From NCBI RefSeq assembly GCF_000003815.2, contig NC_049983.1, forward strand, positions 26,887,277-26,951,276: a DNA stretch of 64,000 bases. Reading direction: 5' to 3'. Each line of letters opens with the position of its first letter. Within the stretch, counting starts at the first letter, position 1. A program made the translations under genes and the position numbers. The DNA comes from Branchiostoma floridae (taxonomy: Eukaryota > Chordata > Leptocardii > Amphioxiformes > Branchiostomatidae). Positions 3,001 to 28,670 of this stretch are shown one piece after another. A model generated the notes under the pieces. That model had not been told where the DNA came from. It saw only the letters and a list, made by a program, of their open reading frames with translations, and searched no databases.

Positions 3001-6000
3001 CAAACTTGTGAACAAGGTACCAAAATTCAGATCTGTAGGGTCTGTTGGTAGAGGACGATTGCAGCCTCACCGAATACTACCCGAAAACATCAAGGAACCA
3101 TCATCCTCTCGCAAACAACAACAACAACAACAAAAATTTCGTCAGCCTGCATGCCCGCTATATTGGACATTTGAAATCTTGCTGCTGCGCGCTGATTGGC
3201 TCGTGCCGAACCCAAATAAGACAAGCTCATTAATACTCAAAAGCAGGACGGAAAATAGCGAGATCTATGGCGTGCTTAAGCAGAGTACGGGCCCGCCGGA
3301 GTTTTATGACGTATGTTCGTCTCTGCGTAGGAGAATGACGCAAGTGAAGATGTATCATTATATAATTTGTGGTAAATAAACACTGGAAATTCTTGTCGGA
3401 AAAAATACAATAAGTTACTCACTGTAGTCTTGTAATGATTTAGCGTGGATCTGGAGTTCATTCGACGGTCGCGCTGCTCTATCTGCTTATAACTTTATAC
3501 AAGTTTTGACAAATAAAGTCTATGTACCTGTACGTAATCATACACAACAGCTGCTGATTTTACAAATAGATGCAAGTTTTACAGAAACGGGCAAGTGACA
3601 AAATGTCGGCTACCTGCAGACGTGTACGTTGCGTAACGCTTCACCGCCTCGGCTTCTTCGTACGTGTGTGAAGACGCTTCTTGCTCTTCTTGCGACTTGT
3701 CAGCCCCGTTGCCATGGCGGCCACGCCCGCGGGAACCACCCTGGTGGACAGGAGGGGGTTTGGTCGGCGGCCCGCTGGTTTGGCCGCGGTCAGGGCGCGA
3801 GAAAGGGGACCGGACCGGCTCTGCTTGCTCGTACATTTGGACTGTACTGTACAGACAACCGCCGCGCAGTGTGTAAATACAAAACTCCGAAGAAAATACA
3901 TGAATATAGCAAATCATACCTTAATTAGTCTGACGACGTAAGGCCACATTTGCCTTTATCTGGAGGGATGACGTGGCATTAGGTGGTTCGAATGGCATTT
4001 TGTTTTTTCTGCAAGTGGCAGACTAATTTTCTGAGAAAAGAAGTTAATCTACGCTGGGAGGGAGAACATGAAAAAGTTTCTACGTGTGAACTCGTAATGT
4101 AGTCATTGAATCCCCATGTTTTTCTGGAGATGTTGCAAACCCTCCTGCAATTTTGGGTAAAACATATGAATTGTACCATAATACTAGTACATGATATAAC
4201 GCTGTGTGTTGTTGCCTTCGCAAACTTGTTCGTCTTGGACTTGTTGGGTCTGTATGTAGGTTAACAGCATATAACTCGAGAAGTTGTGGATGGATTTTGG
4301 TGATATTTGGTAGGTGTGTAGCAGTTGTGAAAAGGCAGGTCAGAATTGAAAATGGTTTACTTGGCGTTTCCCAGGGTTCTGTAGCGGGTTTTGTATTTTT
4401 GTGTGTCTGTTTGTGGACAATATTACTTGAGAAGCTGTTACTGTAACCTTACGATATCGTATAGGTGTGTAGCGAATGTAGAAAGAAAGGTCAAGTTAGA
4501 AAATGATTTACCTGGTGGTTTTCTACGGTACTGCACCTGGCTTTGTATGTTTGTGTGTTAACGTTCGTCTGTAAACAAGATAACTCGAGAAGCTGTGACT
4601 GTATCTTCACTATATTTGGTAGGTAACGTTAAGTAGTGGTTGTGAAAAGGAAGGTCAAGGTCGAAAATGGTTCACCTTGCATGTTCCTAATGGTCTGGAG
4701 CGAGCTTTGTACATACGTTCGTTTGTCTGAAAACAACATAACTCGAGATGTTGTGGGTGGATCTTCATATGACATTAGTAGTTGTGTAGCGGTTGTGGAA
4801 AGGAAGGCCAAGTTTGAATATGGTCCACTTGGCATTTTCCGTCGGTACTGCAGCGGGCTGTGTATGTTTGTGCGTTCGTCTGTGTACAACATAACTAAAG
4901 ACGTTGTNNNNNNNNNNNNNNNNNNNNNNNNNNNNNNNNNNNNNNNNNNNNNNNNNNNNNNNNNNNNNNNNNNNNNNNNNNNNNNNNNNNNNNNNNNNNN
5001 NNNNNNNTGAAGGTCAAGTTCGATGATGGGCTTCCTAGCGGCGTAACGGTGTATATAGCACTGTTTCTAAGTTTCTAACTTGAGTGCAGTGCAACATTGT
5101 ATTCGCCTGTCCAAAAAGCAAATAGAAAAAAAAACGTTTATTTCCAATGTATTTCAAAACTCGTTTGACTGCGTGTTGAAGTTTAAGATGACATAAATAA
5201 GATTGCTAAGTACAAAGGTCGACTTGAAACCAAAGCGGGAAACACAAAACGCAAGAACTTTTATGTTTTACCTTCTCCGGAGGCGTACAAAGGGTTGGGG
5301 AAACTCGCATCGGCGTCAGCACGTGCATGGCAATCATAAGTCTGAGGATCCACCGTAGGGGTGGAGTCTGGGGGAAAATGACAGAAATGTTACAGTCTAC
5401 AGCTATCATCGTACTTATCTGCAGAAATGCAACGGTGATTAATCAAGCTACTTGCACTGCATAAAAAAGTGGGATTAACCTTTAGCGGTAAATACCATTC
5501 ATCATCATCATCATAATCGTTATCATGACTGGTATGCCAAATGCCATTAATGACTGGTAATTTACCTGGCATTTACCCCTTTTGGTAAAGCCCACTTTTC
5601 GTACAGTGTTGTCACAGTAGACTTACCAGAGCCTGGGCATATTACTATTGTCATTTCTTAACTTCAGTGAACCAAGATCACTTTTATTTCTTGCAAATCT
5701 GACTACGAACATAGTCGTATCAAAAACAATACATAAAAAGACCAAACCGTTTTGTATACTTCTCCATTGTCTTTTGATGTAGAAGTAGTAGAAGAAGCAG
5801 AGGTAGTACATGTTCTAGACTATTTTTTCAGTATTCGGTAGGGTAGAGGGGCTTCTTTAAACCATATGGCTGATTTGTATAACATGAACTAGACAAAAAC
5901 GTAAAAGATCATCTTAAGAAAAGCTCGAAATGTTACCAGTCTGGGACTGCTGCTGCCCTCCCGACATGATGCCGCTTGTACTTGTCAGGTTTCTGCACGG

Positions 6001-7340
6001 CAAAAACACGTCCTGCTCCTGNNNNNNNNNNNNNNNNNNNNNNNNNNNNNNNNNNNNNNNNNNNNNNNNNNNNNNNNNNNNNNNNNNNNNNNNNNNNNNN
6101 NNNNNNNNNNNNNNNNNNNNNGACCACATGTAAAACGTCCTAGGAGATATACAGCAACCACAACACACTGTCAACTGATACGCTCTACAAATGAAATACA
6201 TGCAAACTATACCATTCCATACCAAGGGGGTTTAACATAAAATTAAAGCCCTGCTGCAGTACCACGGTCAACCACCAGAGGGCCGTAAATCCCTCAGAAC
6301 GGTCGGGGTCACAAAACTTACCTCCGTACCAAATATCATCACAATCCATTAACAGATTCTATAAGTCCTAAATGTACACAACATAAGCCTCAATTTAACA
6401 CATACCCATCACCTAAAACTCAACACCACAGCACGTCCAGGTGCAAACATATAATACAAAACGTGCTGCTGCAGTACCAAGGTCAACTAACAGGGGGCCA
6501 AAAATCGACCTGCACCATTACCAAACAGCCACCTACCAAAAACCATTGCAAACCTTCCAGCTGTTCTTGAGATATTTCCCCACATAACCTCCACAGTGAA
6601 AACATCTTGACGGACGGAATAAGACGGTAAGCGTTCTACTGTACTGTAGAAAGTTATGTAACTGTTAGGAAAACAAAGCGAAATGCTGGACGTAAATGCT
6701 AGCAGGATAAAACAATTGAGTCGATTGTCAAGCACTGGACCAACAACGTAGTAACGCCTCTCATTTGCTCATACCTCTATCTTCATGGAGGTAACAACTA
6801 TTTTGCCGTTGCCATTTGTAGAATTTCAACAAATCTAAAAGAAAAATAGATAAAGGACTGGTGTAAACTTTACCTTTGAACAAGAATCAAAGTGAGAACA
6901 AAAACAAGACCAGGACGCCGTAAGTGGACTTGGAAACGTTTTACCTCTTACAGAGGTGTACACGCGCAGCGGCGTCGGCAAGTGACTGCCAATCAGTCTG
7001 AGGCCCCACCATAGGAATGATTTCTGCACGCATTCCAGAATTGTATCAAATCATCTAGAAAGCCTAGGGCAATTAACTGCACTTTTTGACAAAATGATGT
7101 ATGTTTTTTTACATGTCTTTTGCATTTTCTAGTAATAGTAATAGTAGACTTAGTAGCAGTAGTACACCCAGTAGTAGATATTTTCCTATATTCGGTAGGC
7201 CAATGAAGCCGTTTTGCTGCCATGGGCTTCTTTAACATATGGCTGATTTGTATAACATGAACTAGACAAAAACGTAAAAGATCATCTTAAGAAAAGCTCG
7301 AAATGTTACCAGTCTGGGACTGCTGCTGCCCTCCCGACAT
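1..7340 (-). CDS. Gene A: type II membrane C-type lectin receptor with 17-residue-repeat stalk (3' end outside window)
   Basis: Predicted cell-surface lectin receptor, N-terminus in the cytoplasm. Exons in transcript order are 7310-7340 (start), 5272-5367 (NPLY module), 3614-3841 (proline-rich cytoplasmic exon), 1548-1693 (membrane segment), 637-1381 (repeat stalk) and 1-97 (start of the lectin domain, continuing past the left edge). All junctions I can read are GT/AG and the phases match (1-1, 1-1, 1-1, 1-0, 0-1, 1). A second copy of the start exon lies at 5937-5967 and a decayed NPxY exon at 6945-7023. Lancelet genomes carry many C-type lectins; a binding specificity cannot be given because the ligand loop is outside the window. 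The exon chain is inferred, and two assembly gaps fall inside the introns. Confidence 0.68.
637..1381 (-). CDS. Gene A stalk exon: thirteen 17-residue coiled-coil repeats
   Basis: The 745-nt exon enters at phase 0 (AG at 1382-1383) and leaves at phase 1 through CCAG/GTAAGT (donor 631-636). It encodes 248 residues: thirteen units of consensus MRQLSTTVDALKRDQDD, followed by about 26 non-repeat residues (LKERSRAAALEQRL...). Leu, Val and Met spacing suggests an alpha-helical coiled coil, so this is probably an oligomerising extracellular neck between membrane and lectin domain, as in other type II lectins. The repeat DNA is a 51-bp minisatellite, which explains the long open frames on the opposite strand. 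Confidence 0.8.
716..1378 (-). repeat. 51-bp coding minisatellite, 13 copies
   Basis: Thirteen head-to-tail 51-bp units inside the gene A stalk exon, differing mainly at the DHDD/GQDD/DQDD/DQDN positions and STT/SAA. The near identity of units suggests recent expansion and probable length polymorphism. Confidence 0.93.
1548..1693 (-). CDS. Gene A membrane-anchor exon
   Basis: Acceptor CTACAG at 1694-1699 and donor GAG/GTAATT at 1542-1547. The exon enters at phase 1 and leaves at phase 0. It encodes a basic juxtamembrane stretch (S-G-R-R-T-L-C-S-F-I-R-S-H) and then a hydrophobic segment of about 23 residues beginning M-V-A-G-I-A-V-L-L-S-L-L and ending A-F-I-N-K-E. Positive residues before the segment and the lectin domain after it predict a type II (N-in) anchor. 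Confidence 0.75.
2480..2850. other. Intron segment paralogous to 12500-12830
   Basis: Stretches such as GATGTGAAAGAACAAAA, TTGTTTAGTCATTTG and CGCTCGCATCAG occur in the same order in the gene C intron, so this is duplicated intron sequence from the common ancestor of A and C. The rest of 1694-3613 shows nothing further apart from a poly-G run at 2483-2495. Confidence 0.55.
3614..3841 (-). CDS. Gene A proline-rich cytoplasmic exon
   Basis: A 228-nt phase 1-1 exon (acceptor TACAG just 5' of 3841, donor GCAG/GTAGCC at 3608-3613). The 76 residues include Y-E-Q-A near the start, a basic Pro/Gly/Arg-rich centre with T-K-P-P-P-V-H-Q (possible SH3 ligand), and the end Y-E-E-A-E-A-V-K-R-Y-A-T-Y-T-S-A. 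The end resembles the NPxY modules (R-A-D-A-A-A...Y-A-S-G-A) without the NP. Phases fit between 5272-5367 and 1548-1693. Several overlapping frames are open because the stretch is GC-rich; this frame is chosen because its phases and ends match. Confidence 0.6.
4200..5050 (+). repeat. Degenerate tandem repeat, period about 157 bp, five visible copies
   Basis: The core ACTCGAGAAG(T/C)TGTGG recurs near 4271, 4429, 4581, 4739 and 4891, followed each time by a GTAGGTGTGTAG-like block and an AAGGTCAAG-like block. Gap 4908-5007 cuts the fifth copy. Related single copies lie at 17077-17280, 57930-58110 and, inverted, around 6240-6500, so this is a dispersed element family amplified locally. Confidence 0.7.
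4908..5007. other. Assembly gap (100 N)
   Basis: Run of N inside a tandem repeat; its true length is unknown. Confidence 0.99.
5066..5138 (+). mobile_element. 3' tail of a SINE
   Basis: Matches the reverse complement of the SINE tail at 20870-20940: ACTTGAGTGCAGTGC, then TGTCCAAAA(A)GCAAATAG and a poly-A tract. Only the 3' end is present; the rest lies in or beyond the gap at 4908-5007, or the copy is 5'-truncated. Confidence 0.6.
5272..5367 (-). CDS. Gene A NPxY cytoplasmic module exon (NPLY)
   Basis: A 96-nt phase 1-1 exon with acceptor CCCAG/AC and donor GAAG/GTAAAA. It reads T-V-D-P-Q-T-Y-D-C-H-A-R-A-D-A-D, then S-F-P-N-P-L-Y-A-S-G-E. F-P-N-P-L-Y fits the FxNPxY endocytosis/PTB-binding consensus known from the LDL receptor family. 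This is the one intact module seen in gene A. Confidence 0.7.
5937..5967 (-). CDS. Duplicate first exon of gene A (start codon, [10 protein letters not shown])
   Basis: Identical to 7310-7340 including the donor G/GTAACA. The identical block runs from about 5863 to 6021, where a 100-N gap begins. It may be an alternative promoter/first exon or an assembly duplication at the gap. Confidence 0.5.
6022..6121. other. Assembly gap (100 N)
   Basis: Run of N directly upstream of the duplicated first exon of gene A. Confidence 0.99.
6945..7023 (-). pseudogene. Decayed NPxY module exon of gene A
   Basis: Aligns with the gene C exon 21593-21685 but lacks 14 nt that would encode the I-P-N-P-T part, so the exon is 79 nt, no longer a multiple of three, and has lost the motif. 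AG and GT borders remain. Inclusion would shift the frame, so it is probably dead or skipped. Confidence 0.7.
7310..7340 (-). CDS. First coding exon of gene A
   Basis: ATG at 7338-7340, ten codons ([10 protein letters not shown]) and a phase 1 donor G/GTAACA. The same start and 5' leader occur at 5937, 21952 and 29116. In genes C and B the donor lies 15 nt further on, adding G-D-T-D-A or G-D-T-G-A. No signal peptide is encoded, as expected for a type II protein. Confidence 0.7.
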
Positions 7341-11634: not shown

Positions 11635-11905
11635 TTAAAACATAACCTTCTTAGCGAATGTAACAAAGTCGAGTTCACATGACGTACCTGAAGCGACTTG
11701 ACAGATGAAGCCTTTAGTGAGGTCACATGGCCAGACCATCCACTTGATGACTGGTCTATGTGGCTGTACAAATGAGACTGAGTGAGAAACGCAATCACCA
11801 GGTTTTTCCGGACTCCACGTGCTGTAGTCACCAAGTGCAGAACCGTCCACCCACTCAAAGCTTCTCTCTTCACGCAGGCCGATCCAGAAGTCCAGACTCT
11901 CATTC
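11635..11905 (-). CDS. Gene C exon: C-terminal half of C-type lectin domain, stop at 11635
   Basis: Enters at phase 2 through TATAG (AG at 11906-11907). It contains F-W-I-G-L-R-E-E (WIGL motif), [27 protein letters not shown] and F-I-C-Q-V, giving the conserved cysteines. The calcium/sugar motifs EPN or QPD and WND are absent (E-K-P and W-P-C-D instead). Gene B stops right after G-T-S (TGA); here that codon is TGT, so the frame continues 14 more residues to a TAA at 11635-11637. An alternative is splicing at CAG/GTACGT (11682-11687) to an unseen exon. Confidence 0.72.
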
Positions 11906-14900
11906 CTATAAATGAACCTGAACCGACCAATGATAGGTTACACAGTATACAAAATGCACATTGACACAGTACTAGACGTGCGACAGGAGGCGGGTTAAGA
12001 TTTTCGTTATGATCAATTATGGAATGATATTCCATTATTTGTAGACCTCCAACTTTGAAGTTCACCATTTTGTTTATTCATATTTCTTTGTCAACCATTT
12101 GTTTTAATCTTAATATGTATTAATGTCATTGGACTCCAGGAAGAATACTATGACAGCATTGTAACACTAATTCAAATCTTGAAAAACAAACAAACACATA
12201 CCAGTACATGCTGTAAATGAAGATGTTGTGGAGTTCGTCGCGGGGCATGGCGAGTGTGCCATTATCTTCACGACAGGTCTCGGCCGCATCACTGAACTTC
12301 TTTTGTGTGTTAAACACCTTGTAGCAGATTTTGTTCCAAAGTAATTTTGTGTAACCTCCGGGGCAAGATGCTGAAAGAAAGATTTGCATCAAACGGGAAT
12401 TATTTCTCACTGAATTCTGCTTTTCTTCTATTAGGCCATATTGATTTGATGGTATGAATGACATTCCCTAGCGCATCAATTTGTGGCCGTTTGTAAGTTT
12501 TGAATCACTCTGTAAATCGTAAAAAGCAGCTGTAAAATGAGCATGAATATACCGTAAATTTGAATTGCCAATATAGATCCTAATGTCATAGAATGCCAAA
12601 TAAAATTTCAACGTCAAAGAAGATGTGAAAGAACAAAAATGTATACGTATACCTCACTCAGTGTGTTTAGTCATTTAATCAACATTTTGTTCTGACTACT
12701 TAGATTTCATACTAAAGGCAACTAGTTTTAAACAACTAAACTATTGCTAAACTATTTTATATTCACACGCTCGCATCAGTTTAGGGGTTCCAATAGGATG
12801 TCATCCATATCAAATCAACATGGCCAGTGATCGGTCCAGTGATCCGAATCAACATCATTTTGTATACACTATGATTATTTTAAAGGACTTTAGAATCCAA
12901 ACATACAAGGGAAGCGGCTAGAATTGCATGATAAAGCATTATGGAATGCCTCACCTGTACGTCCAGCCGGTCCGGCAGGACTTGAAGACTGGGGCATCCC
13001 TGTTGGACCGGGCGGCCCGACGGGTCCCTTCGGCCCTCGGGGCCCAACTGGTCCGGGCGGCCCATCCTTTCCTGCCTTTTCTCCCGGAGGTCCAGGTGGC
13101 CCGACAGACACAGGGCCAACTGGTCCCATGGCTCCCTTTTCTCCCGGAGGTCCAGGCGGCCCGGCAGACACAGGGCCAGCTGGCTCAATGGCTCCCTCTT
13201 CTCCTGGAGGTCTGCTTGACCCAGGAAGCCCAAGAGCCCAAGAGTTTCCTGAAAATGAACCTTCTAAGAAGACCCAGACATACATGTACCAACTTTGGCC
13301 CAACGGTCCGTTTTGCACCAAATAATTTGGTGCAAAAGAGACCGTTGGACGAAAGATGGTACATATCAGATATGACCTGATATATCAGGTTCTAATGAGC
13401 ATCTGTGATCCTTAGCTTGGAAGGAATCACCAAATGCAGCTTGAACGTACAAAATGTCCATTCAGGGGCAGATCACATTCCAAATTTCAGAACAAACCAA
13501 ATATACTTTTTTTATGTTTAATTACCTAGCATGAAGTTATAGTGAAAAAAATGCATTGTACTTACTTTCTAGCTCCTGCACACGTGCTTGCAGCTTTCCC
13601 ACCTCCTCGAAAACAGTGAATCTGGCTGTATCAACAACAATAAAATTTACGGTTACTACAAAAATGTGGGCTCCATCCCTGACGGGCACCGGTGCAATTG
13701 GGACCTAAGCTTGACGAGTAATGTGAGGAAAAGGTACTCAGGATCAGACTGATTGTCTGAGAGAATATCACGGTCGCGAAGTTTTGCATGATGCAAATAT
13801 TCAATAGACAGGTCATTTCAACAGCACGTTACAAGCTGATCGATCATGCTGGACAGGAACATGTGGAGACGATGGTGTCCCCTTTCCGAGGATGAACTGA
13901 ACTGAACTGAACTGTTACAAGCTTTCCGACTCCATATTCATAAGTTCGAAAATTAAGAGAAAACTGACCTGCAAAATAGGACGATACAACAGCGATGACC
14001 ACGAAGATCACGGGGCTCGAGAAAAGCCACAACGCCATGCATTTCTTCCTCCTCTGGTTAGAGGGTGCTTTTGTATATAATGCAAAAATCATTTTTAAAC
14101 ATGAAATGTGTATATGAAGAGGTAAGAACAGTACAACAGTATAACATGTAACTCAATGGGTGTGGTGTCTGACAACATGAGTCATGACAAACATGTAACT
14201 ATACAGTTATTTGTGGAAATATTAGACTAGTACGAATAAGTTCACCAAAATATAATATGTCTCAGTTTTAAGAAATGACCAAAAGTGCGCACAGTTGTAG
14301 AAAATAGAAGGAAATGATTTATAAAAATGATACATCACTTGTAACAACATTGCCTTAAACCAGGAAACAAAGAGAGAACCACAAAGAAGCAACAACAGAA
14401 AGCCCTATGATAGCTCGGAATGAAACTTTACCTGCTCTAGAGGCGCACATGGGGTTGGGTATTTTCGCAGCGCCGTCCTCACGTGCATGCCAATCAGGTT
14501 GAGGTTCTTCCATAGGTTCGGCGCCTATAACAAACTTGCATGATCATTTTTCCACAAACCAACCGTGGAACGTTGAATGCACTTTACTTTCACTTTTACA
14601 TTGAACTGACGTCTGGCCAAATTACAAAAATGTATGGTGTCGCATATAGCAAAGCTGATGCAAATACGAGGGGCGTTCAATAAGTAATGCCCCTGACTCA
14701 TTTTCCATAGCAGGAGATAAATGAAACTTGACACAGTTATTAGTCTTTCTCTGCATAGGAACCACCTAGAGTTATGAATGTCTCCCATTGTTTGATGCAT
14801 CTCTGGACACCGTTTTTGTAGGACACCCCAGGTTGGTCCTCTAACAGATACCTCATCAATGACAGAAGAGGGACGACCAGGTCTGGGAGCTGTTTCCACA

Positions 14901-17900
14901 GACTTCCGGCCATGTTTGAATTCACGATGCCAGCGTTTTACAACGTCATATGATGGGGCATCATCACCATAAGTTTCTTTCATTTCATCAAAAGTCTCCT
15001 TTGGTGTGCGTCCTTTCAAATACAAAAACCGAATCACTGGGCGACACTAAACTGGCTCCATTTCACACCTGGCTCATTTCACACCTGACTCAGTTCAAAC
15101 ACCTTTAAATCAGAAACTACTAATAGTTCAGAGCTGGTTTTTGCAACAAAACTTATAGAGATATTAATCATTATACATGCTAAATTTCATCTAGATCAAA
15201 CAACTGAAAGTGGGTCAGAGACATTACTTATTGAACGCCCCTCGTATGCTTACCAACACATAATCTGAGTATCAAGAATGACCACTTCATTCGTATAATA
15301 TGAAGTATAGGATTGCTTCATTTTACAACATGTCACTTTTGCCTAAACGCTTTTCAGCACACACGCAAAAAAACAATTTTTGTAACCATTTGTAAAAAAA
15401 AGTAGGAGACCATTCCAAAATTGAAATACGACTTGTGCGAACTTTGCCAAAGAACAAGATTCAAACCGTGAAACATAAAAAAGACAGAACGTGATGACTT
15501 TTTACCTGCTATTGACGCATACACGTGTTCAGGTATGCTCGCAGCGGCGTCGGCACGTGCCTGATAATCAGTCTGAGCTTGAGGCTGCTGCATGGGTGTG
15601 GTGTCTGGCAAAATGACAAACATGTAACTATACAGTCATCTGTCAAATAAATAAATCTGTAGAAATGTTAGTGCGGGTAAGTTTACCAGATAACAAATCT
15701 GAGCTCATGCAATGACAACATAATTTATACAATTGTACAATTGAATTGTAGAAGATGTAAAGTAACTATTTTTAAGAAATGATACATAACTTGTAGCAAC
15801 TTTGCTTTAGACCAGGAAACAAAGCGAGAACCACAAAGGGGGACACAGAAGGCCCTATGATAACGCGGACTGGAACTATACCTTTACCATATAAACTATA
15901 AAATTGCTTCAACTTAAATCATGTTACTATTGCCTAAAAGCTTGTCAAGGCAAAAAGACAAAACTATTTTCGTAACCATTTGTAAAATGATACACCTTAC
16001 CAAAAATGAAACACGACTTGTGTGAATTTCGCCTTAGAACAAGATTCAAACCAAGGAATAGAAAAATACAAGAACAGAACGCGTAAGGGGACTTGACGAC
16101 TTTTTACCTGTTAATGACGCGTAGGCGTGGTCAGGTGTGCTCACAGCGGCGTCGGCACGTGCCTGACAATCAGTCTGAGGCTGCTGCATGGGTGTGGTGC
16201 CTGGAAAAAATGACAAACTTGTAACTATACAGTCATTTGTAGAAATATCAGTGCGAGTAAGTTTACCGGCTATTTAGAGATCATCTGAGCTCATGCAATG
16301 GTAACATAATTCATACAAATGTAGAAGATGGAAAGTAACTTTTGAAAAATGATACATAACTTGTAGCAACTTTGCTTTAGACGAGGAACAAAGCGAGAAC
16401 CACAGAGACAACAAACCCTGTGATAGCTCGGAATGAAACTTTACCTGCTCTAGAGGCGTACATGGGGTTGGGTATTTTCGCAGCGGCGTCCGCACGTGCC
16501 TGCCAATCAGGTTGAGGTTCTTCCATGGGTTCGGCGCCTATGACAAAGTTGCATAATCATTTTCTACAAGCCAGCAGTGGAACGTTAAAGGTACTTTACT
16601 TTCACTTTACACATTTTGTGGCGTCTGGCAAAATTAATATCACAAAAATGTATGCTTCTACACTTCGAACCTGGTGCGAATATGCTTAACAACATAATCT
16701 GAGTATTAGAAATGTCCACTTGATTCGTACCATATAAAGTATAACATTGCTTCATCTTACAACATGTCACTATTGCCTAAGCGCTTTTCAACACAAGAAG
16801 ACCAACAAAATATTTTTGCAACCATTTGTAAAATAGTAGGAAATCATTTCATAACTGATACACGACTTGTGTAAGAACAAGATTCAAACCAAGAAACAAA
16901 AAAGACAAGAACAGCACGCCGTAAGGCGAGTTGACGACTTTTCACCGGCTAATGACGCGTAGGCGTGTTCAGGTGTGCTCGCAGCGGCGTCAGCACGTGC
17001 CTGACAATCAGTCTGAGGCTCCTCCATGGTTGTGGTGTCTGGTAAAATTGACAAACTTGTAACTATACAGTCATTACCTTTGCCAGAATGGCTAAGGTTA
17101 TGTTTTGGGCTTGTGAGTCTGTGTGTGTGTCTGTCTGTTAACAGCATAACTCAAGAAGTCTTGGATGGATCCCGATAATATTTGGTAGGTGGGTAGGGGT
17201 CGGGAAAACGAAGGTCAAGTTCGATAATGGGCCCCCTAGCGGCTTGCTAAGGTACTGCAGCAGAACCTCAATTTTTGATATCTCGTGTTCTGGACATGCT
17301 GTGATCATGATTTTTGAGTGGTAGATAGCCCTCGAGGCAGAGAGTAAGTGCTGTGAGTTTGGGCCCCCTAGCGGCTTTTTTATTATGCAAATGATGACCT
17401 CATTTGCATAATTAATGAGAAAATATGAACATGTTGACGGATCATCATGTTTTTTTGTAAGTAGGTAGCGTAAGTGAAGACCTACATAATGAGATAACAA
17501 TTATGCAAATCAACAGCTAATTTGCATAATTAATGAGGATATTTTATAAATTCACTACATTCCATGATAGGGCTTTAAAACTTGTCACATATGTAGCTGA
17601 GAAAGAGAGAAATGTCAATACATATTTATCATGCAAATGATGATCTCATTTGCATAATTAATGAGAAAATATTAACGTGTTGACGGATCGTCATGATTTT
17701 CGGCATGTAGATAGCCTAAATGAAGACTTATATAATGTGATACTTATTATGCAAGTTAACAGCTAATTTGCATAATTGATAGGAAAAGTTCATAAATCCA
17801 CTGCATTCCATTATAGTACTTTCATCAAAGTTGTCACATATGTAACTGAGAAAGAGGGAAGAGAGTAAGAGGTGTATTTAAAGACTTTGAAAGAGAATAA

Positions 17901-20900
17901 GTCAAGAATGGATCAAAGGATCATCATGATTTTTGGTATGCTGATAGCTTAAGTAATGCTTGATACAATTTGATATCAATTAATTGTAAATTGGGATCTA
18001 ATTTGCATACTAAATGCCGAAATTTTATAAACCAACTCCAAGCATTTAATTATAAAGAAAATGAAATGAGTAACGCATTTGTCTACAGACATCATTCTAC
18101 ATAACAAACCTGGTTTATTTGGCAAAGGTATGTGTTCGTGGAACTCTAGTTTGGAATAATATCAGTGCGAGTAAGTTTACCGGATAACAGATAACCTTAT
18201 AATTTATACAATTGTAGAAGATAGAAAGTAACTATTTTGAAAAATGATACATAACTTGTAGCAACTTTGCTTTAGACAAGGAACAAAGCAAGAACCACAA
18301 AGACAGACAACAAAAGCGGGCTTGAAAACGATTTACCTGCTCCGGGGGCGTATATCGGGTTGGGTATACGCGCGGTGGTGTCCACACGTGCCTGACAAGC
18401 AGTCTGAGGCTCCCCTACGAGTGTGGCGTCCGGGAAAATTATGAATTTATTTTCTTACAGACCAACTTTGGAATGTTTAAGGCACAGTACTTTTGCAGCG
18501 TTAACAGAAAATATGAATATAAAAAAACACAATGCACAAAATGCTGTAATATTGCTACATTTTCAAATATTTCATCATTGCTTGGGAGCTTTTTTTAACC
18601 AAACAACAACGAAATTGTATACTTTTATTGATTGACGTTTAAAGAATATAGATAAAGAGGCACAGACAAAAACAATATCTCCATTTTTCATAGCGATAAT
18701 TACGGCTGAGAACAAAACGATCAGATCAGTTCCCAGTGTCATTACAAACATTCAGAGACCAATGTATACTGTAGTTCTTGTATGCATTTAAACATATTAT
18801 AAACTCATTAAAACACTTTCTAAGTACAATAACTTTACAATAGACTTTAAACCTAAGCGAAAACTAGAAGGCCAGAAAAGAACACAGTTACATAACTGGA
18901 TTCCGTCAAGTTAAAAGTCACTGGCATTTGAAACAACTATCGTCTTTTAGCAGAACGGCAAACTTTAAGCTTTTGACTTAGGTATGTATTCATAAGGGTC
19001 GGAGCTGGTGCACTTTCCTTTTTCACTAATTTAGTTTACTATTCTTCGCGATATCGTCGTACATCTATAATCAAAATGTCTTCACAGGCTTTTGCCCCCT
19101 CCCAAAATTATAGTACACTCTGATCGACCGGTGAGTGATATGGCATCGACAGTTTGCGGGACAGACATGTACGATATATATATAATCACTGTTCATTGTG
19201 ACTAGTATATCTCCTATGTTTATATCATGTACTTGAAATTAGCCTCCGGGCATGAACTTGCAAATAAACATCTTTAATATAATCGGAACTAAAACGTTTT
19301 ACCTGCTCCGGGGACGTAGAGAGGGTTGGGTCCGCTCGCAGAGGCGTAGGCACTGACCTGCGAATCAGTCTTGTCTTGCTCAGTTGGTGTGGCGTCTGTT
19401 GGAAAATGTAGTTGAAGCATTTCAGAGACCAGCGTATACTGTATGTCTACACCAAAGCAAGAGCAACAAAGGCAACAAAAGGAAACAGTTGAGGAGGCAA
19501 TGTACAACAGAGCCCAATGGCCAACCCTCAACAGAGACGGGGGCCACATAGACTTTCTGCTACTTATGCCCCCCTCCTGCAAAGGTCAAAGGCACTCCAC
19601 ATTTACTTTTCCATGGGATTGGTGTCTGGCAAAATTACAAAAATCTCTGCTGTCACAAATAGCAAAATTTGTGCGAATATGCTTACCAACACATAATCTG
19701 AGTACCAAAGATTACAACATAATCCGTACCATATCAAGTATAAAGTTGATTTATCTTACAACATGTCATTATGTGCCATGCAACTTTTTAACACAAAAAA
19801 AAACTCGTTACCATTTGTTAGATAGAAAGAGGCCACTTCAAAAAAATATACACGATTTGTGGAGTAAATGAAAAATAGATAAATAAATAAACTTGTGTGA
19901 ACTTTGCCTTAGAAAAAGAATGAAATGAAGAAACACAAATAAAAGAAAAGGACGCCATAAGCGCACTTCATGAAAACATTTTACCTGCTCCGGAGGCGCA
20001 CATAGGATTTGGTATACTCGCAGCGGCGTCGGCACGTGCCTGCCAATCAGTCTGAGGCTCTTCCGTGGGTATGGGACCTGGTAAAATGACGACCATGTAA
20101 CCATGCAGTTACTTATAGAAATATTAGGGCGATTACGTTAACCAACAGATTATCTGAGTTAAGCAATGACAACACAATCCATACCGCTGTAGAAGGTACA
20201 TGTAGAAGGTAACTATTTTAAAATATTGTACATAACCTGTAAAAACTTTGCCTTAGACCAGGAACAAAGTGAGAATCATAAAGAGAAACAACAAAAGGGA
20301 GTCGGAAGCAGATTTGGAAATGTTTTACCTGCTCCGGAGGCGTACATAGGGTTTGGGAAACTCGCAACGGTGTCGGCACGTGCCTGCCAATCAGTCTGAG
20401 GCTCCTCCATGGGCGTTGCACCTGGCAAATTACAATTTTTATTTTTTTGTACCAGCAAACCTTGAATTGTAATGACCACATAGGGTGTACGATATCAAAT
20501 ATAAAATTACTGCATCTTACATGTCATTATTACCAAACAGCGTTTTAACACAACAAGAGTTCGTAGACTTCATACCTCCATGGAATATTCACATATATGT
20601 GTTTGCATAGGGGTTGGTTGGATTTTGTGATGGTGTTTTATTTGGTGGGGGACATGGGCAATAGTTTAAGAGAAGACAGATGATTAACAGTATATGGTCT
20701 AAGCAAGGACTAGCAGAGGGAGATCAGTTTCCAACACACTATAAATAACAGCTTTTTGCATAATCCATTCATCTATGTACTAGTAGTACAGAATCAGTAT
20801 TGTAACCTGTTAAGGCCACAGTAAGTGATGACATGGACTACCAAAGTAATGAGATAGGACGAAATATTTTTTTTTCTATTTGCTTTTGGACAGACGAGGA

Positions 20901-21997
20901 CGATGTGGCACTGCACTCAAGTTTTTGTAACTTATATCAACAATGCCACATACACGGTACAGACAGAAGGAAAGGCGTGTAAAGTGCCTTTCCCAAGGGC
21001 ACAACGTCGGGGGCACGGTGGGAATCGAACTCAGGACCCATAGATTCCGAGCCGAAAGCTCTACCAGTTACGCCACGCCCGACGCCACGACGAAATATTT
21101 CAAATGGCTACATTTTCCAAATAGACACCGTAAACGTTGTAACAACAAATGAAGCGGTAAAAGTAACTATCCTACCTCTGCTTGTAGTCCTTCATTAGAC
21201 CAACAACTAACAAAGAACTTTCTGATCACCCCCTCGTATCTTGCAAACAATGTGCATATGTCGAAACACTGTTTACGCGAACTAAGACGGTACGTGACAG
21301 GGTGTGACAAGAAGGGGTGACGCAACAATAAGCGCCTGCGCCTAGATCCCGTCGTCAAATAAAAACAAGGCTTTAAACCATTGAAAAGAGGTTCTTGAGA
21401 TATACCCCACATAATCTCCAGAGTGAAAACAGTATGGCAACAATGGAGGTAACAACTATTTTGCCGTTGCCATTTGTCAAATTTCAACATATTAAAAAAA
21501 AAGACTTGTGTAAACTTTACCTTCGAACAATAATCAAAGTGAGAACGAAAATCAAGACCAGGACGCCGTAAATGGACTTGGAAACGTTTTACCTTTTACA
21601 GAGGTGTACGTAGGGTTGGGTATACGTGCAGCGGCGTCGGCACGTGACTGCCAATCAGTCTGAGGCCCCACCATAGGCGTGGTGTCTGTAGGAAAATTCC
21701 AGAATTGTATCAAATCATCTAGAAAACCTAGGGCAATTAACTGAACTTTTTTTTCCAAATGATGTAACGTTTTTTACATGTCTTTTGCATTTTCTAGCAA
21801 TAGTAATAGTAGTCTTAGTAGTAGTAGTAGATCTTTTTCCAGTATTCGGTAAGACAGTGAAACCCTTTAACTGCCATCGAGCTGATCTATATGGATTGAA
21901 GGTGAGAAAAGGGAAAAGAATGTCCTGAGAAAATCACCAATTCAAACCTACCGGCATCTGTGTCCCCAGTCTGGGACTGCTGCTGCCCTCCCGACAT
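11635..21997 (-). CDS. Gene C: type II membrane collagenous C-type lectin receptor with NPxY exon array
   Basis: Exons in transcript order are 21952-21997 (start), NPxY modules 21593-21685, 20329-20421, 19985-20077, 19303-19395, 18337-18429 (dead acceptor), 16946-17038, 16445-16537, 16108-16200, 15506-15604, 14432-14524, then membrane exon 13969-14067, coil 13566-13625, collagen 12955-13248, and lectin exons 12202-12370 and 11635-11905. Phases match throughout. With every module included the frame is 1875 nt (624 residues); without 18337-18429 it is 593. The layout (cytoplasmic tail, one membrane span, Gly-X-Y stalk, lectin domain) resembles membrane collectins and suggests a trimeric endocytic lectin. 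Lectin loops lack the textbook calcium/sugar motifs. Splice usage is inferred. Confidence 0.72.
12202..12370 (-). CDS. Gene C exon: N-terminal half of C-type lectin domain
   Basis: A 169-nt exon, phase 1 in and phase 2 out (TACTG/GTATGT). It reads [21 protein letters not shown] and G-T-L-A-M-P-R-D. These are typical first-half C-type lectin signatures, with the first disulphide pair and helix 1. It is homologous to gene A 1-97; gene B has lost this part. Confidence 0.85.
12955..13248 (-). CDS. Gene C collagen-like stalk exon
   Basis: A 294-nt phase 1-1 exon (acceptor TTCAG, donor G/GTGAGG). Gly-X-Y triplets include two copies of G-P-P-G-P-P-G-E-K, then G-P-R-G-P-K-G-P-V and G-P-P-G-P-T-G, with a few interruptions. 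The triple helix predicts trimerisation. Two imperfect 60-nt internal repeats (near 13085 and 13145) suggest the helix grew by duplication. The open frames on the plus strand here are shadows. Confidence 0.85.
13566..13625 (-). CDS. Gene C short coiled-coil exon
   Basis: A 60-nt phase 1-1 exon reading [19 protein letters not shown]. It is homologous to the four stalk exons of gene B (25705-26314). It probably forms a short coil that registers the collagen helix. Confidence 0.75.
13969..14067 (-). CDS. Gene C membrane-anchor exon
   Basis: A 99-nt phase 1-1 exon (acceptor AAAAG/CA, donor GCAG/GTCAGT). It reads P-S-N-Q-R-R-K-K-C and then a hydrophobic run [16 protein letters not shown]. The basic cluster before the span supports N-in topology. 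Same length as the gene B exon 26447-26545. Confidence 0.8.
14432..14524 (-). CDS. Gene C NPxY module exon with Tyr to Cys (NPMC)
   Basis: A 93-nt phase 1-1 exon with intact borders (TATAG/GC, GCAG/GTAAAG). It reads [14 protein letters not shown], then [11 protein letters not shown]. It is nearly identical to 16445-16537 except that the motif tyrosine codon TAC is TGC. Confidence 0.72.
14667..15244 (-). mobile_element. Non-autonomous mariner-type element with transposase N-terminal fragment
   Basis: Terminal inverted repeats of about 35 bp (CGAGGGGCGTTCAATAAGTA at the left, its complement at the right) are flanked by TA target duplications at 14665-14666 and 15245-15246. The interior (15037-14850, minus) encodes [21 protein letters not shown] and P-R-P-G-R-P-S, the N-terminal helix-turn-helix of mariner transposases. 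The catalytic domain is deleted. It inserted in the intron between two NPxY exons. Confidence 0.85.
15506..15604 (-). CDS. Gene C module exon, variant motif EHVY
   Basis: A 99-nt phase 1-1 exon with intact splice sites. It reads [18 protein letters not shown], then [12 protein letters not shown] two-codon insertion (Q-A) makes it longer than its relatives. NP is replaced by EH, so it is not a classical NPxY but keeps the tyrosine. Confidence 0.7.
15870..15900 (-). pseudogene. Deletion scar of a lost NPxY exon
   Basis: Flanks match those of 16445-16537 (…CTATGATAACGCGGACTGGAACTATACC… against the region before the intact donor, then ACCATATAAACTATAAAATTGC against 16728-16750), but the exon and part of the upstream intron are missing. 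So the duplicated two-exon unit lost one member here. Confidence 0.5.
16108..16200 (-). CDS. Gene C module exon, variant motif DHAY
   Basis: A 93-nt phase 1-1 exon, acceptor TTCCAG and donor ACAG/GTAAAA. It reads [16 protein letters not shown], then [12 protein letters not shown] sister of 16946 and 15506. Confidence 0.7.
16445..16537 (-). CDS. Gene C NPxY module exon (NPMY)
   Basis: A 93-nt phase 1-1 exon with intact borders, reading [16 protein letters not shown], then [11 protein letters not shown]. Intact counterpart of the Cys variant at 14432. Confidence 0.75.
16946..17038 (-). CDS. Gene C module exon, variant motif EHAY
   Basis: A 93-nt phase 1-1 exon, acceptor ACCAG and donor GCCG/GTGAAA. 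It reads [16 protein letters not shown], then [11 protein letters not shown]. Confidence 0.7.
17077..18128. mobile_element. Inserted repeat element with short TACCTTTGCCA terminal inverted repeats
   Basis: TACCTTTGCCA at the left and TGGCAAAGGTA at the right form short inverted ends, with TA at both borders. The paralogous introns at 16218 and 15630 run straight from CAGTCATTTGTAGAA to ATATCAGTGCGAGTAAG, which shows this block is an insertion. Inside are repeats with period about 248 bp carrying AATTTGCATAATTAATGAG and TTGACGGATC(A/G)TCATG. Confidence 0.65.
18337..18429 (-). pseudogene. Gene C NPxY module exon (NPIY) with mutated acceptor
   Basis: The frame is open and reads [14 protein letters not shown], then [11 protein letters not shown]. 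The donor GCAG/GTAAAT is fine but the acceptor is CCCGG/AC where paralogues have CCAG/AC. Without an AG it should be skipped, which leaves the frame intact because the exon is symmetric. Confidence 0.7.
19303..19395 (-). CDS. Gene C NPxY module exon (NPLY), divergent
   Basis: A 93-nt phase 1-1 exon, acceptor AACAG and donor GCAG/GTAAAA. It reads [15 protein letters not shown], then [11 protein letters not shown]. The most divergent module but intact; an extra tyrosine (S-A-Y-A-S) lies upstream. Confidence 0.7.
19470..19580 (+). mobile_element. Penelope-like element relic
   Basis: The plus strand reads [20 protein letters not shown], the degenerate end of a Penelope GIY-YIG domain (compare K-E-A-V-Y-I-R-A-H-R-P-S-L-N-R-D at 8600-8700). 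Located in a gene C intron. Confidence 0.6.
19985..20077 (-). CDS. Gene C NPxY module exon with Tyr to Cys (NPMC)
   Basis: A 93-nt phase 1-1 exon, acceptor ACCAG and donor GCAG/GTAAAA. It reads [16 protein letters not shown], then [11 protein letters not shown]. The tyrosine is replaced by cysteine, independently of 14432 because the two exons belong to different subfamilies (S-G-A against S-R-A ends). Confidence 0.72.
20329..20421 (-). CDS. Gene C NPxY module exon (FPNPMY)
   Basis: A 93-nt phase 1-1 exon, acceptor GCCAG and donor GCAG/GTAAAA. It reads [16 protein letters not shown], then [17 protein letters not shown] fits FxNPxY. Confidence 0.78.
20870..21088 (-). mobile_element. tRNA-derived SINE with 12-bp target-site duplication
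   Basis: GACGAAATATTT occurs at 20858-20869 and 21089-21100. On the minus strand the element has an A-box-like GTGGCGTAACTGGTAGAGC, a B-box GAGTTCGATTCCC, a body with CTTGGGAAAGGCACTTTACA and a tail ending in A-rich sequence (T-run at 20867-20875). This is a complete SINE insertion in a gene C intron. Confidence 0.85.
21593..21685 (-). CDS. Gene C NPxY module exon (NPTY), first module after the start exon
   Basis: A 93-nt phase 1-1 exon, acceptor CTACAG and donor AAAG/GTAAAA. It reads [16 protein letters not shown], then [11 protein letters not shown]. Orthologous position to the decayed gene A exon 6945-7023. Confidence 0.78.
21952..21997 (-). CDS. First coding exon of gene C
   Basis: ATG at 21995-21997, fifteen codons ([15 protein letters not shown]), and a phase 1 donor G/GTAGGT. 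The leader is conserved with genes A and B. Confidence 0.75.
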
Positions 21998-24999: not shown

Positions 25000-25339
25000 T
25001 CATGACGTACCTGGAGCGACTTGGCAGAAGTAGTGACTCTCCATCGTACATCTTAAGTCGTACCACTCATATTTTCTGGAATAAACACAATCACCGGAGC
25101 CATAAGGTTCTTGCGGACCCCACGAGTTGTAGTCTCCAAGTGCAGAACCATCCACCCACTCAAAGATTCCCTCTTCGCGCTGATCGTGCAGGCCGATAAA
25201 GTAGTCCTCATCGTCGCCGAAAGGATTGTTGGTGTACAATGAGGCCAGGAATTCGTTGGTCCCAGCGTCTCGGGGCATGGCGAGGGTGCCGCCGTCTTCA
25301 CGACAGCTCTCGGCCGCATCGCTGAAGGTTTTTTCTATC
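25000..25339 (-). CDS. Gene B exon: most of a C-type lectin domain, intronless, stop at 25000
   Basis: Acceptor TTTTCAG precedes 25339 and the frame ends at TGA 25000-25002. It reads [46 protein letters not shown] and Y-F-C-Q-V-A-P-G-T-S. Unlike gene C it has no intron after helix 2. Loop residues P-Q-E-P and W-Y-D are near the sugar-binding consensus but not EPN/WND. The N-terminal part of the fold is missing. Confidence 0.7.
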
Positions 25340-25399
25340 CTGAAAAGGTTATGATTTCAATTTTATCTATTTTTTATATTTCAAACCATACCACTTTTT

Positions 25400-25560
25400 C
25401 TTATGTTTTTTCTTCTTCTCCTGTTAAATCTTCAAATCGATTCATCTCTATCATTTCTGCCCAAATGACCTGAAATTTGGCACAAATGTACAGTGGGCCA
25501 ATACCCAGGTGTTCTTTTCATTTCTATTTCTTTAAATGATTCTATTGACGCCCATAGTTT
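25400..25560. repeat. Dispersed repeat occupying the place of the lost lectin exon
   Basis: Matches 45250-45420 over stretches such as ATGACCTGAAATTTGGCACA, TGGGCCAATACC and TCAAATCTTCAAA-like. Its presence between the stalk and lectin exons suggests the deletion or replacement that removed the first lectin exon. Confidence 0.6.
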
Positions 25561-25704
25561 GGAAGAAATCGCCAAAAAGCAGATTTTCTCCACATCACGT
25601 GAACGCATTTATATCCAATCATGATTATTCAGAATTTTTCAGATATATCTTTTTAATTGATCTGTCCTTTTTTATCTTCTTAGTGAAAACTGCATCGCAT
25701 TTAC

Positions 25705-25758
25705 CTTGAAGCTCCTGCACACGTGCCGGCAGCTTTCCCATCAGCTCAGTCAACCTGA
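25705..25758 (-). CDS. Gene B stalk exon 4
   Basis: A 54-nt phase 1-1 exon reading V-R-L-T-E-L-M-G-K-L-P-A-R-V-Q-E-L-Q. Last of four duplicated coil exons. Confidence 0.7.
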
Positions 25759-25863
25759 CTGTATCAGCAACAACAAATATCACGATTGTTAATAATGTCT
25801 GCATAATACCAGTATTCTCAATTCAACAGAATATTACAGGTGATGTGATGAGAATGTACTTAC

Positions 25864-25917
25864 CTTCCAGCTCCTGCACACCTGCTTGCAGCTTTCCCAT
25901 GTCTTTTGTGAATCTGA
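25864..25917 (-). CDS. Gene B stalk exon 3
   Basis: A 54-nt phase 1-1 exon reading V-R-F-T-K-D-M-G-K-L-Q-A-G-V-Q-E-L-E, with acceptor GACACAG and donor G/GTAAGT. Confidence 0.7.
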
Positions 25918-26057
25918 CTGTGTCGGCACAAGAAAAAGAAAATCACAGTCGCGAAGTATGATCTGCTTGATACTAGATTATGATCATGTTAATAATGTCT
26001 GATTAATACTCTCATTTCTGCAGACTATTACAAGTGACGTCAGGACAAAGTACTTAC

Positions 26058-26117
26058 CATTCAGCTCCTGTAGATCTGCTTGCTGCTTTCCCATGTCTTC
26101 AAAAATAGTGAATCTGA
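26058..26117 (-). CDS. Gene B stalk exon 2
   Basis: A 60-nt phase 1-1 exon reading V-R-F-T-I-F-E-D-M-G-K-Q-Q-A-D-L-Q-E-L-N, closest in length to the gene C coil exon 13566-13625. Confidence 0.7.
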
Positions 26118-26257
26118 CTGTGTCGGCAAAAAAAATAGAAAATCACGGTCACGAAGTATGATCTGCTTGATAACAGATCATGGTCATGTCAATAATGTCT
26201 TCATAATACTCTCATTTCAACAGAATATTACATGTGATGTGATGACAAAGTACTTAC

Positions 26258-26314
26258 CATTCAGCTCCTGCAGACCTGCTTGTAGCTTTCCCAAGTTGTC
26301 TTTTGTGAATCTGA
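26258..26314 (-). CDS. Gene B stalk exon 1
   Basis: A 57-nt phase 1-1 exon reading V-R-F-T-K-D-N-L-G-K-L-Q-A-G-L-Q-E-L-N. The four stalk exons and their introns are about 190 bp repeats of one another. Confidence 0.7.
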
Positions 26315-26446
26315 CTGTGTCGGCAAAAAGAAAAAAAAATCACGGTGATCTGCTTGATGCTAGATCATGATGCAAACATTACAACATACATGTCATTTCT
26401 ACAGCATCTTTCAAATTTTCCAATATAAACGAAAGAGAAATCTGAC

Positions 26447-26545
26447 CTGAAAAATAGGACAATAGAATAGCGATGGTCACGGCGACCACAGGACTGGAGA
26501 TTTGCCAAAATCGGCTGACGCATTTCTTCCGCTTTTTGGAGGCTG
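26447..26545 (-). CDS. Gene B membrane-anchor exon
   Basis: A 99-nt phase 1-1 exon, acceptor CAACAG/CA and donor TCAG/GTCAGA. Basic A-S-K-K-R-K-K-C-V-S-R-F-W precedes the hydrophobic segment S-P-V-V-A-V-T-I-A-I-L-L-S-Y-F. Homologous to 13969-14067. Confidence 0.78.
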
Positions 26546-26703: not shown

Positions 26704-26796
26704 CTTTTCTGGAGGCGTACATAGGGTTGGGTATACGTGCAGCGGCGTCCGCACGTGCCTGCCAGTCATTCTGAGGCTCCTCCATGGGTGTGGCGT
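26704..26796 (-). CDS. Gene B NPxY module exon (NPMY)
   Basis: A 93-nt phase 1-1 exon, acceptor ACCAG and donor AAAG/GTAAAA. It reads [16 protein letters not shown], then [11 protein letters not shown]. It directly precedes the membrane exon. Confidence 0.75.
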
Positions 26797-26881
26797 CTGG
26801 TAAAATCATAAATCCATTTTCTACAAGCCAAACTTACAATGTTCTAAGCACACAAATGTCGGTCATGTAAAAGGTCACTGC

Positions 26882-27762: not shown

Positions 27763-27855
27763 CTGCTCCAGATGCGTAAGTAGGGTCTAGAACATCCGCA
27801 GCGGCGGCGGCACGTGCCTGCCAATCAGTCTGAGGCTCCTCCATGGGTGCGGTGT
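27763..27855 (-). CDS. Gene B module exon (DPTY)
   Basis: A 93-nt phase 1-1 exon, acceptor GCCAG and donor GCAG/GTATAG. It reads [16 protein letters not shown], then D-V-L-D-P-T-Y-A-S-G-A. Asn of NPxY is Asp. Confidence 0.7.
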
Positions 27856-28014
27856 CTGGCAAAAGTCATTAATTTATTTTCTACAAGCCGACCTTAGAAT
27901 GTTCTAAGCCCTTTTACATTTTGCTACAGATAGTCTGAATATCAAATATGACCAGTAAAGAGTGCCTCGCAACTTAAGTTATGATACGCTGATGCGGTAC
28001 TGAAAACGTTTTAA

Positions 28015-28065
28015 CTTCACCGGGAGCGTACAGCAGGTTGGGATCTTGCTTCATGGTTGTGGCGT
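28015..28065 (-). pseudogene. Short gene B module exon (NLLY) with mutated donor
   Basis: A 51-nt open stretch with acceptor AACAG/AC, reading T-M-K-Q-D-P-N-L-L-Y-A-P-G-E. The donor is GAAG/TTAAAA where paralogues have G/GTAAAA, so the GT is lost. Confidence 0.6.
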
Positions 28066-28192
28066 CTGTTGGAAAATTACAGCATTTCAGAGACCAGTGT
28101 TTACTGTAGATCTACTACAACAGACATCAAACCAGAGAACTACGAAGAGAGAGACTACAAAAGGACTTCGTAAGCGGACTTCAAAACTATAC

Positions 28193-28285
28193 CTGGTACA
28201 GATGAGTAAGTAGGGTCTACAACATCCGCAGCGGCGTCGCCACGTGCCTGCCAATCAGTCTGAGGCTCCTCCATGGGTGTGGCGC
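28193..28285 (-). pseudogene. Gene B module exon (DPTY) with mutated acceptor
   Basis: Open 93-nt frame with [16 protein letters not shown] and D-V-V-D-P-T-Y-S-S-V-P and a donor CCAG/GTATAG, but the acceptor reads CCTG/GC instead of CCAG/GC. Likely skipped. Confidence 0.65.
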
Positions 28286-28583
28286 CAGGAAAAAAATTAA
28301 AAAAAGTCATTATGTTTACCCACACATTATCTGGTTGTCAAAAATAACGTTACGACATAAATCATACATTTTGAAGTAAAATTGCTGCATTTTATAACAT
28401 GTCATTATTGCCTAAAAGATTTTTAAGAAAGCGACAACTTTTTCAAAATCAATTTGTAAGATAGATAGAAATAGAAAGATACCATTTCAAAACATTATAC
28501 ACGACTTGCATAAACTTTGCTGTCTTAGACAAAGAAACAAGGCGACAACCGCAAATCAGCACAAGGGCTTGAAAACGTTTTAC

Positions 28584-28670
28584 CTGCTCCGGATTCATAC
28601 ATGGGGTTGGGAAAAACGGCGTCGTTACAACCCTGCAAATCAGTCTGAGGCTGCTGCATGGGTGTGGTGT
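28584..28670 (-). CDS. Gene B NPxY module exon (FPNPMY), first module
   Basis: An 87-nt phase 1-1 exon, acceptor TCTAG and donor GCAG/GTAAAA. It reads M-Q-Q-P-Q-T-D-L-Q-G-C-N-D-A, then V-F-P-N-P-M-Y-E-S-G-A. FxNPxY intact; two codons shorter than the usual module. Confidence 0.75.

Follow-up and report, generated by a model that had tools for sequence, protein, structure and literature searches.

The closest described receptors in overall architecture are the vertebrate type II C-type lectins ASGPR, DC-SIGN, Dectin-1 and CLEC2, with which the lancelet genes described here share a (putative) N-terminal cytoplasmic tail, a transmembrane (TM) segment, a stalk, a C-terminal C-type lectin domain (CTLD) and tyrosine signals in the tail. 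We know of no vertebrate receptor of this kind whose tail is built from a repeated exon; the repeats of DC-SIGN lie in the extracellular neck, not the tail. Tails of the LDLR/LRP type belong mostly to type I receptors and hold few motifs. They and the amnionless (AMN) tail, whose (F)xNPxY/F is read by Dab2, ARH and Numb, share cytoplasmic NPxY-type motifs with the lancelet modules (PMC6912373, PMC2882754). FxNPxY is one of three motifs shown to be both necessary and sufficient for entry into clathrin-coated vesicles, and it is read by the PTB domains of Dab1, Dab2, ARH and Numb (PMC2882754); the other source states that PTB adaptors recognise [FY]xNPx[YF] and that AMN carries two redundant copies (PMC6912373), more than one motif copy in some such receptors being a further likeness. 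The lancelet tail differs in that it appears to be type II and N-terminal, is made of one repeated symmetric exon in 1–10 copies, has mostly I or V rather than F at −5 and seems to switch motif. Dscam1-type arrays (PMC4835542, PMC3236188, PMC5465998) likewise consist of tandem duplicated exons in a receptor gene; those are ectodomain exons spliced exclusively, whereas the lancelet modules are symmetric and putatively cytoplasmic. Our literature search, which covered mostly non-subscription papers, found no description of such a module: both NPxY tails and C-type lectins of type II are familiar, but no large family with a repeated and switchable cassette in its tail turned up there. The original prediction, made from the letters of this DNA, likewise knew of no described equivalent in C-type lectins.

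The window, that is, the whole 64,000-nucleotide stretch analysed (C5:26887277-26951276), carries on its minus strand 16 module-like exons within 5272-28670, headed by four start exons, those of genes B, C and A and of a fragment A' (Table 1); the original prediction had missed this kind of exon. They follow the consensus [D/G]xTPM(E/Q)(E/Q)...(S/R)(I/V/F)PNPMYASG, of about 31 residues. A protein HMM found 0 matches in 20 shuffled windows, and a DNA model found 0 in reversed sequences. The repeated exon array that had been reported is thus partly confirmed: the minus-strand pattern is there, in 16 rather than about 18 exons, and the length of 93 nt, given for nearly all, applies to 11 of the 16 (12 if 18337-18429 is taken from its lost acceptor), the others measuring 87, 96 and 99 nt, and one copy being truncated (6956-7018). 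AG and GT stand at the expected places, lengths are divisible by 3 and the phase is 1-1 wherever both sites are intact, as had been claimed for all; phase and divisibility by 3 are built into our extraction rule. Independent support for the phase comes from the window start exons, which end at phase 1 because their coding parts measure 46, 46, 31 and 31 nt, and from the TM exons of genes B and C, which by eye begin at phase 1. Acceptors are damaged in 28193-28285 (TG) and in 18337-18429 (AG lost); in the latter, splicing at an in-frame AG located 15 nt further in would leave an exon of 78 nt, and the same is seen in a paralogue (L026).

NPxY is kept in 8 of the 16 window modules (5272, 16445, 18337, 19303, 20329, 21593, 26704 and 28584). 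The variants are NPMC (14432, 19985), P[DE]H[AV]Y (15506, 16108, 16946) and DPTY (27763, 28193), and the truncated 6956 is without any NPxY-type motif. FxNPxY occurs, as listed originally, at 5272, 20329 and 28584. Gene C, credited with up to nine modules, has ten between its start and TM exons: five NPxY, three [D/E]xxYxxPhi and two with C for Y.

Table 1. Features of the lancelet window (positions within the window; TM, transmembrane).
Feature	Position	Strand	Remarks
Gene B start exon, coding part	29116..29161	-	ATG at 29161; 46 nt, ends phase 1
Gene B module 1	28584..28670	-	87 nt; VFPNPMYES, F at -5
Gene B module 2	28193..28285	-	93 nt; VDPTYSSV (DxxYxxV); acceptor TG
Gene B module 3	27763..27855	-	93 nt; LDPTYASG
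Gene B module 4	26704..26796	-	93 nt; IPNPMYAS, membrane-proximal
Gene B TM exon	26445..26542	-	ASKKRKKC...PVVAVTIAILLSYF, positive charges on the N side; read by eye as phase 1-1; lower boundary approximate
Gene B stalk, four coiled-coil-like exons	25703..26315	-	VRFTxxxGKLQAxVQELxG
Gene B C-type lectin domain	25015..25356	-	Lectin_C 4e-19
Gene C start exon, coding part	21952..21997	-	ATG at 21997; 46 nt
Gene C module 1	21593..21685	-	IPNPTYTSV
Gene C module 2	20329..20421	-	FPNPMYAS
Gene C module 3	19985..20077	-	IPNPMCAS (C for Y)
Gene C module 4	19303..19395	-	GPNPLYVP
Gene C module 5	18337..18429	-	IPNPIYAP; usual acceptor lost; in-frame AG gives 78-nt exon 18337-18414
Gene C module 6	16946..17038	-	TPEHAYASL (ExxYxxL)
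Gene C module 7	16445..16537	-	IPNPMYAS
Gene C module 8	16108..16200	-	TPDHAYASL (DxxYxxL)
Gene C module 9	15506..15604	-	99 nt; IPEHVYASI (ExxYxxI)
Gene C module 10	14432..14524	-	IPNPMCAS (C for Y), membrane-proximal
Decayed module remnant	14120..14170	-	..cag ACACCACACCCATTGAG..; by eye, span approximate
Gene C TM exon	13967..14067	-	positive charges on the N side; read by eye as phase 1-1
Gene C coiled-coil-like stalk exon	13564..13626	-	
Gene C collagen (GPP) stalk	12992..13162	-	
Gene C lectin domain, first part	12165..12368	-	local CTLD model 3e-19; Pfam Lectin_C 0.0053, below cut-off
Gene C lectin domain, second part	11692..11934	-	local CTLD model 1e-16
Fragment A' start exon, coding part	7310..7340	-	ATG at 7340; 31 nt
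Fragment A' truncated module	6956..7018	-	HMM span; 72-nt AG-GT reading exists; no NPxY
Gene A start exon, coding part	5937..5967	-	ATG at 5967; 31 nt
Gene A module	5272..5367	-	96 nt; FPNPLYAS, F at -5
Gene A TM exon	1530..1693	-	TYPGGASGRRTLCSFIRSH...IAVLLSLLAVGL; ends approximate
Gene A coiled-coil-like stalk	767..1327	-	17-residue repeats
Gene A lectin domain start	3..95	-	runs off window

With its TG acceptor, gene B module 2 is probably not spliced normally. Gene B may be incomplete or decayed and lack part of its lectin domain: no CPxGY exon was seen by eye upstream of the lectin exon (25356-25700), whose phase seems not to match that of the stalk exon. Inside the gene C array, 14525-15046 is an ORF that resembles a piece of a mariner transposase. 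The gene A start exon is 100% identical to the gene B block across the matched 86 nt; it and its near-identical neighbour (5937-5967 and 7310-7340) stand beside a 100-N assembly gap (6022-6121), and the pair represents either gene A with a partial duplicate or an effect of assembly. A 51-bp tandem repeat (724-1351, 12.3 copies) encodes the 17-residue stalk repeats of gene A, whose number varies among loci. Large tandem arrays also lie outside the lectin genes, at 35295-36164 (57-bp unit), 32787-33282 (39-bp unit), 37501-38543 (43-bp unit) and 45403-45986 (162-bp unit).

A search of the genome (assembly of 513 Mb, 431 contigs) with the module consensus peptide gave at least 150 scored matches, the best of 414 candidates (E < 4e-7), a single one containing an in-frame stop; they fall into 89 clusters spread over 20 contigs. 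For the start block of gene B there were at least 40 scored matches, the best of 149 candidates, and both counts are minimum figures, since scoring was confined to the best candidates. Across 33 loci and the window, the order start, modules, TM, (stalk), CTLD recurs on a single strand, with coiled-coil or collagen exons as the stalk. Start-to-TM chains that read unbroken (n = 14) hold 1, 2 (five chains), 3 (five chains), 4, 8 and 10 modules, one 3-module chain, on C3, counting damaged modules; copy number is therefore variable, as had been proposed, at 1–10 per gene, and the variation is between genes. Arrays of 6, 6 and 7 modules (C5, C10 and C8) also precede a TM exon, their start exon not being found in the stretch. 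Of 23 genes that have a TM exon and at least 3 kb read downstream of it, 20 show a CTLD there, including L023, where it is weak and far off, and L013, where it is in pieces; none was recognised in the stretch read of L024, L028 and L033. On C3, two TM exons precede the CTLD. L020 has a CTLD with a weak TM match, and in L022 neither was recognised. Lectin_C scores are 1.2e-20 in L016 and 4e-19 in gene B. Some genes of the family may be dying, or the domain models may miss exons, given the broken modules (28193, 6956 and the remnant at ~14150), the missing CTLD or TM exons and the possibly incomplete lectin domain of gene B.

Upstream regions of 26 first modules were compared, and 16 of those sharing a blastn-matched block were aligned: an M[S/P].. 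start is coded in 15 of these, the exception being L018 (MPGDKKPSQTGDT), and the ATG of the L020 start exon is displaced. At the other end, the membrane-proximal module is a subtype of its own in 8 of 16 TM1-type arrays, with the proline replaced and N..Y.S kept in 8/8; a related module in L010 and L011 carries H at the place of Y. Orphan start exons occur on C2, where C2:34742586 and 34760899-34770103 (L013-L015) hold start exons with no recognised module before the next start or the end of the stretch. Downstream of a start exon at 26956494 (L028:2811-2885 and below, running into the window) lies a gene with three modules and a TM exon, in which no CTLD was recognised as far as gene B. On C2, a minus-strand ORF of ~440 codons (L012:4371-5688) sits between an 8-module array and the TM exon; it contains DRTYPGGASSYGAL, TIDDTNPVYGQ, DPYTDLRPDSMEPYAVRY and a long GNDAGTSG-like repeat, and is possibly an extra tail region.

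By eye, and following the positive-inside rule, K/R-rich residues precede the hydrophobic TM stretch and the start exon is hydrophilic. Because a TM segment with positive charges on its N side, the stalk and the CTLD all come after the modules, these most likely make up the cytoplasmic tail at the N terminus of type II lectins; the hydrophilic N terminus and the N-side charges make a type II protein with its modules inside the cell the simplest reading, and the charges, with no hydrophobic leader, point to the cytosolic side. The assignment of the modules to tails of lectin receptors is supported by the recurrent exon order and strengthened by the genome search. We put the probability at roughly 0.6 that these tandem-duplicated phase 1-1 exons encode the N-terminal, modular endocytic or signalling tail of type II C-type lectins.

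One could instead assign each module to a gene of its own, or take the modules as alternative first exons, with translation starting at the ATG within PMEEPQ; M does stand at residue 5 in 37 of 60 modules. A conserved start exon lies ahead of the arrays, however, the M is replaced by K, I, V or T in several first modules, no copy of the start exon was found within the gene C array, and the modules have acceptors, all of which makes this reading highly improbable. The module ATG was rejected as start codon on the strength of the upstream start exon.

Selection was assessed against neutral simulations along the estimated tree. Among 102 module copies from the loci read, collected with stops read through, 5 have an in-frame stop (2 of these full length), against a neutral expectation of about 29% of copies; this comparison uses the 102-copy set since the 59 modules in the simulation were pre-filtered for stops. 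NPxY is kept in 38 of 59 distinct 93-mers (0.644; neutral mean 0.345-0.353, midpoint root), a level reached by 0-1 of 300 simulations and, with three random roots, by 3 of 900, and picking copies by HMM similarity may somewhat inflate such conservation. NxxYxS (0.661 against 0.336) and TDW (0.746 against 0.316) were each reached by 0/300. By column, Q9, T10, D11, W12, D17, A18, A20, P23, N24, Y27 and S29 were reached by at most 13/300 simulations (counts uncorrected for 30 columns), and the pattern retained relative to neutral is T-D-W....D..A..P-N-x-x-Y-x-S. In the wider set NPxY is present in 62 of 96 modules and absent from 34. NPxY as the shared pattern therefore stands in one respect, its family-wide retention above neutral, and falls short in another, half of the window modules being without it.

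The codon model gives a different picture for the module as a whole: tree-based omega comes to 0.965 and does not differ from 1 (lnL −1995.50 with omega free, −1995.55 with omega fixed at 1), so that the model does not demonstrate purifying selection across the whole module. By column class, omega is 0.75 for the core and 1.33 for the others; it is 0.56 for TM1 and 1.06 for the CTLD, the last a rough value, since its fixed fit outscored the free one. Between C5 paralogues, position-matched dN/dS is 0.30-0.87, from few sites. The module is a constrained skeleton within a loosely evolving frame, and the constraint is patchy, since a whole-module omega of about 1 stands beside columns kept above neutral. 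In an ungapped comparison, third positions were conserved in the modules and introns looked random. Constraint on the DNA at synonymous sites was considered and rejected: 4-fold identity is 0.81 in distal modules and much the same, 0.82, in the lectin domain (TM1, 0.71), so the modules do not stand out at such sites.

An omega near 1, broken acceptors and remnants, and a module number that differs among close paralogues (10 in gene C, 6 in the L026 gene in the stretch read) would suit an account in which most copies are neutral by-products of unequal exchange and each gene uses only one or two of its modules, perhaps the one nearest the membrane. We consider this unlikely: stops are far rarer than the neutral expectation, of the 96 extracted copies, 92 have AG and all 96 have GT (partly selected by extraction), and identity falls to background just beyond the exon in the ungapped comparison.

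The constraint extends beyond the tyrosine motif. The TDW...ARADAAA half, quoted in the original prediction and left uninterpreted there, is at least as constrained as the NPxY half. By contrast with the columns above, the middle P (P25; 159/300 simulations reach it) and a hydrophobic residue (I/V/L/F/M) at −5 (0.729 against a neutral mean of 0.805; 244/300) are no better kept than under neutrality, which tells against PhixNPxY as the conserved unit; F stands at −5 in 8 of 60 modules. AlphaFold places a helix at residues 11-20 of the 31-residue module, before the turn (mean pLDDT 73, weak evidence for so short a peptide). Against Pfam, the module gave nothing above cut-off (best 0.024, a phage family), and against the PDB no match at E up to 10.

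These features could mean that the tail exons act mainly as a spacer of variable length or as a helix-based binding site (TDW...ARADAAA), with the tyrosine secondary: T10, D11, W12, D17, A20 and S29 are constrained as much as N24 and Y27 or more, P25 and −5 are not above neutral, the helix is predicted in that very part, and modules without Y persist (13 of 96). Such a role is improbable as the main one, though, as N24 and Y27 are each above neutral (8/300 simulations, uncorrected for 30 columns), NxxYxS was reached in none, and where N is lost YxxPhi is present in 9 of 10 modules.

A tyrosine could be scored in 82 of the 96 modules; the other 14 comprise 13 without Y and one partial copy (L016) whose NPMY was misread. 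N stands at −3 in 72 of the 82, and 2 of these 72 have a hydrophobic residue at +3; the remaining 10 have D or E in place of N, and 9 of them have the hydrophobic residue (Fisher 1.8e-9, with ancestry ignored). The adaptor-signal reading is thereby qualified: NPxY is retained above neutral, and in some variants [D/E]xxYxxPhi takes its place. A tree of 92 modules has N lost twice and the hydrophobic residue gained three times. One lineage comprises gene C and the L026 gene, and its outermost member has NPAYASL, as if the hydrophobic residue had come first; in the other (position 2 of gene B and relatives) the residue is present in 4 of 5. A switch from PTB-type to YxxPhi-type signals in two module lineages is suggestive only, resting as it does on two N-loss events.

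Half-ITAM motifs, which the [D/E]xxY[AES]S[LIV] variants resemble, several tyrosines in series and a lectin ectodomain would also fit a phosphotyrosine signalling tail that is not endocytic, docking Shc/IRS-type PTB or SH2 proteins, with [D/E]xxYxxL/I acting in a hemITAM-like manner; the CTLD omega of about 1.06, a rough estimate, is as in fast-evolving recognition domains. We regard this as rather unlikely. Only 10 of 82 tyrosine modules are without N at −3, 71 of 82 are without the +3 hydrophobic residue, and the link to kinases and SH2 proteins is putative. Of the 11 with that residue, 9 are [D/E]xxYxxPhi: in this test for hemITAM/YxxPhi, YxxL/I/V with an upstream acidic residue is a minority variant and not the family rule.

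PTB adaptors of vertebrate type comprise Dab, ARH and Numb, and nine PTB/PID exon matches occur in this genome. We favour the endocytic or signalling tail because FxNPxY/PTB uptake is known and PID exons are present. The earlier interpretation as a whole is partly supported. Each module of ~31 residues would form a short helix followed by a tyrosine turn (PNPxYxS), and modules in series would give the mature tail several docking sites. NPxY-type modules would engage PTB-domain endocytic or signalling adaptors, and the rarer [D/E]xxYxxPhi modules AP-2 mu2 or SH2 proteins; the number and kind of modules per gene would then set the avidity of uptake or signalling. The number of docking sites would be fixed mainly by gene and exon duplication, and in-frame skipping of modules by splicing, the tuning proposed originally, is no more than a possibility. 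We infer that module-bearing receptors are transcribed, bind adaptors and are endocytosed. A more elaborate version, which we offer tentatively, is an adaptor code: a cassette of helix and tyrosine turn used 1–10 times per gene, with at least two switches from PTB to YxxPhi/half-ITAM signals, gene C integrating adaptor classes and the mix possibly chosen by splicing.

Immune receptor families are best known for diversifying their outer, ligand-binding part. In the lancelet family, the overall architecture is steady, and it is the putative inner docking part that varies among paralogues in copy number and motif type. The genes may offer a possible case of convergent motif switching within a single exon family, and they would provide a natural series, from 1 to 10 modules on one scaffold, for learning how the number of docking sites sets uptake or signalling.
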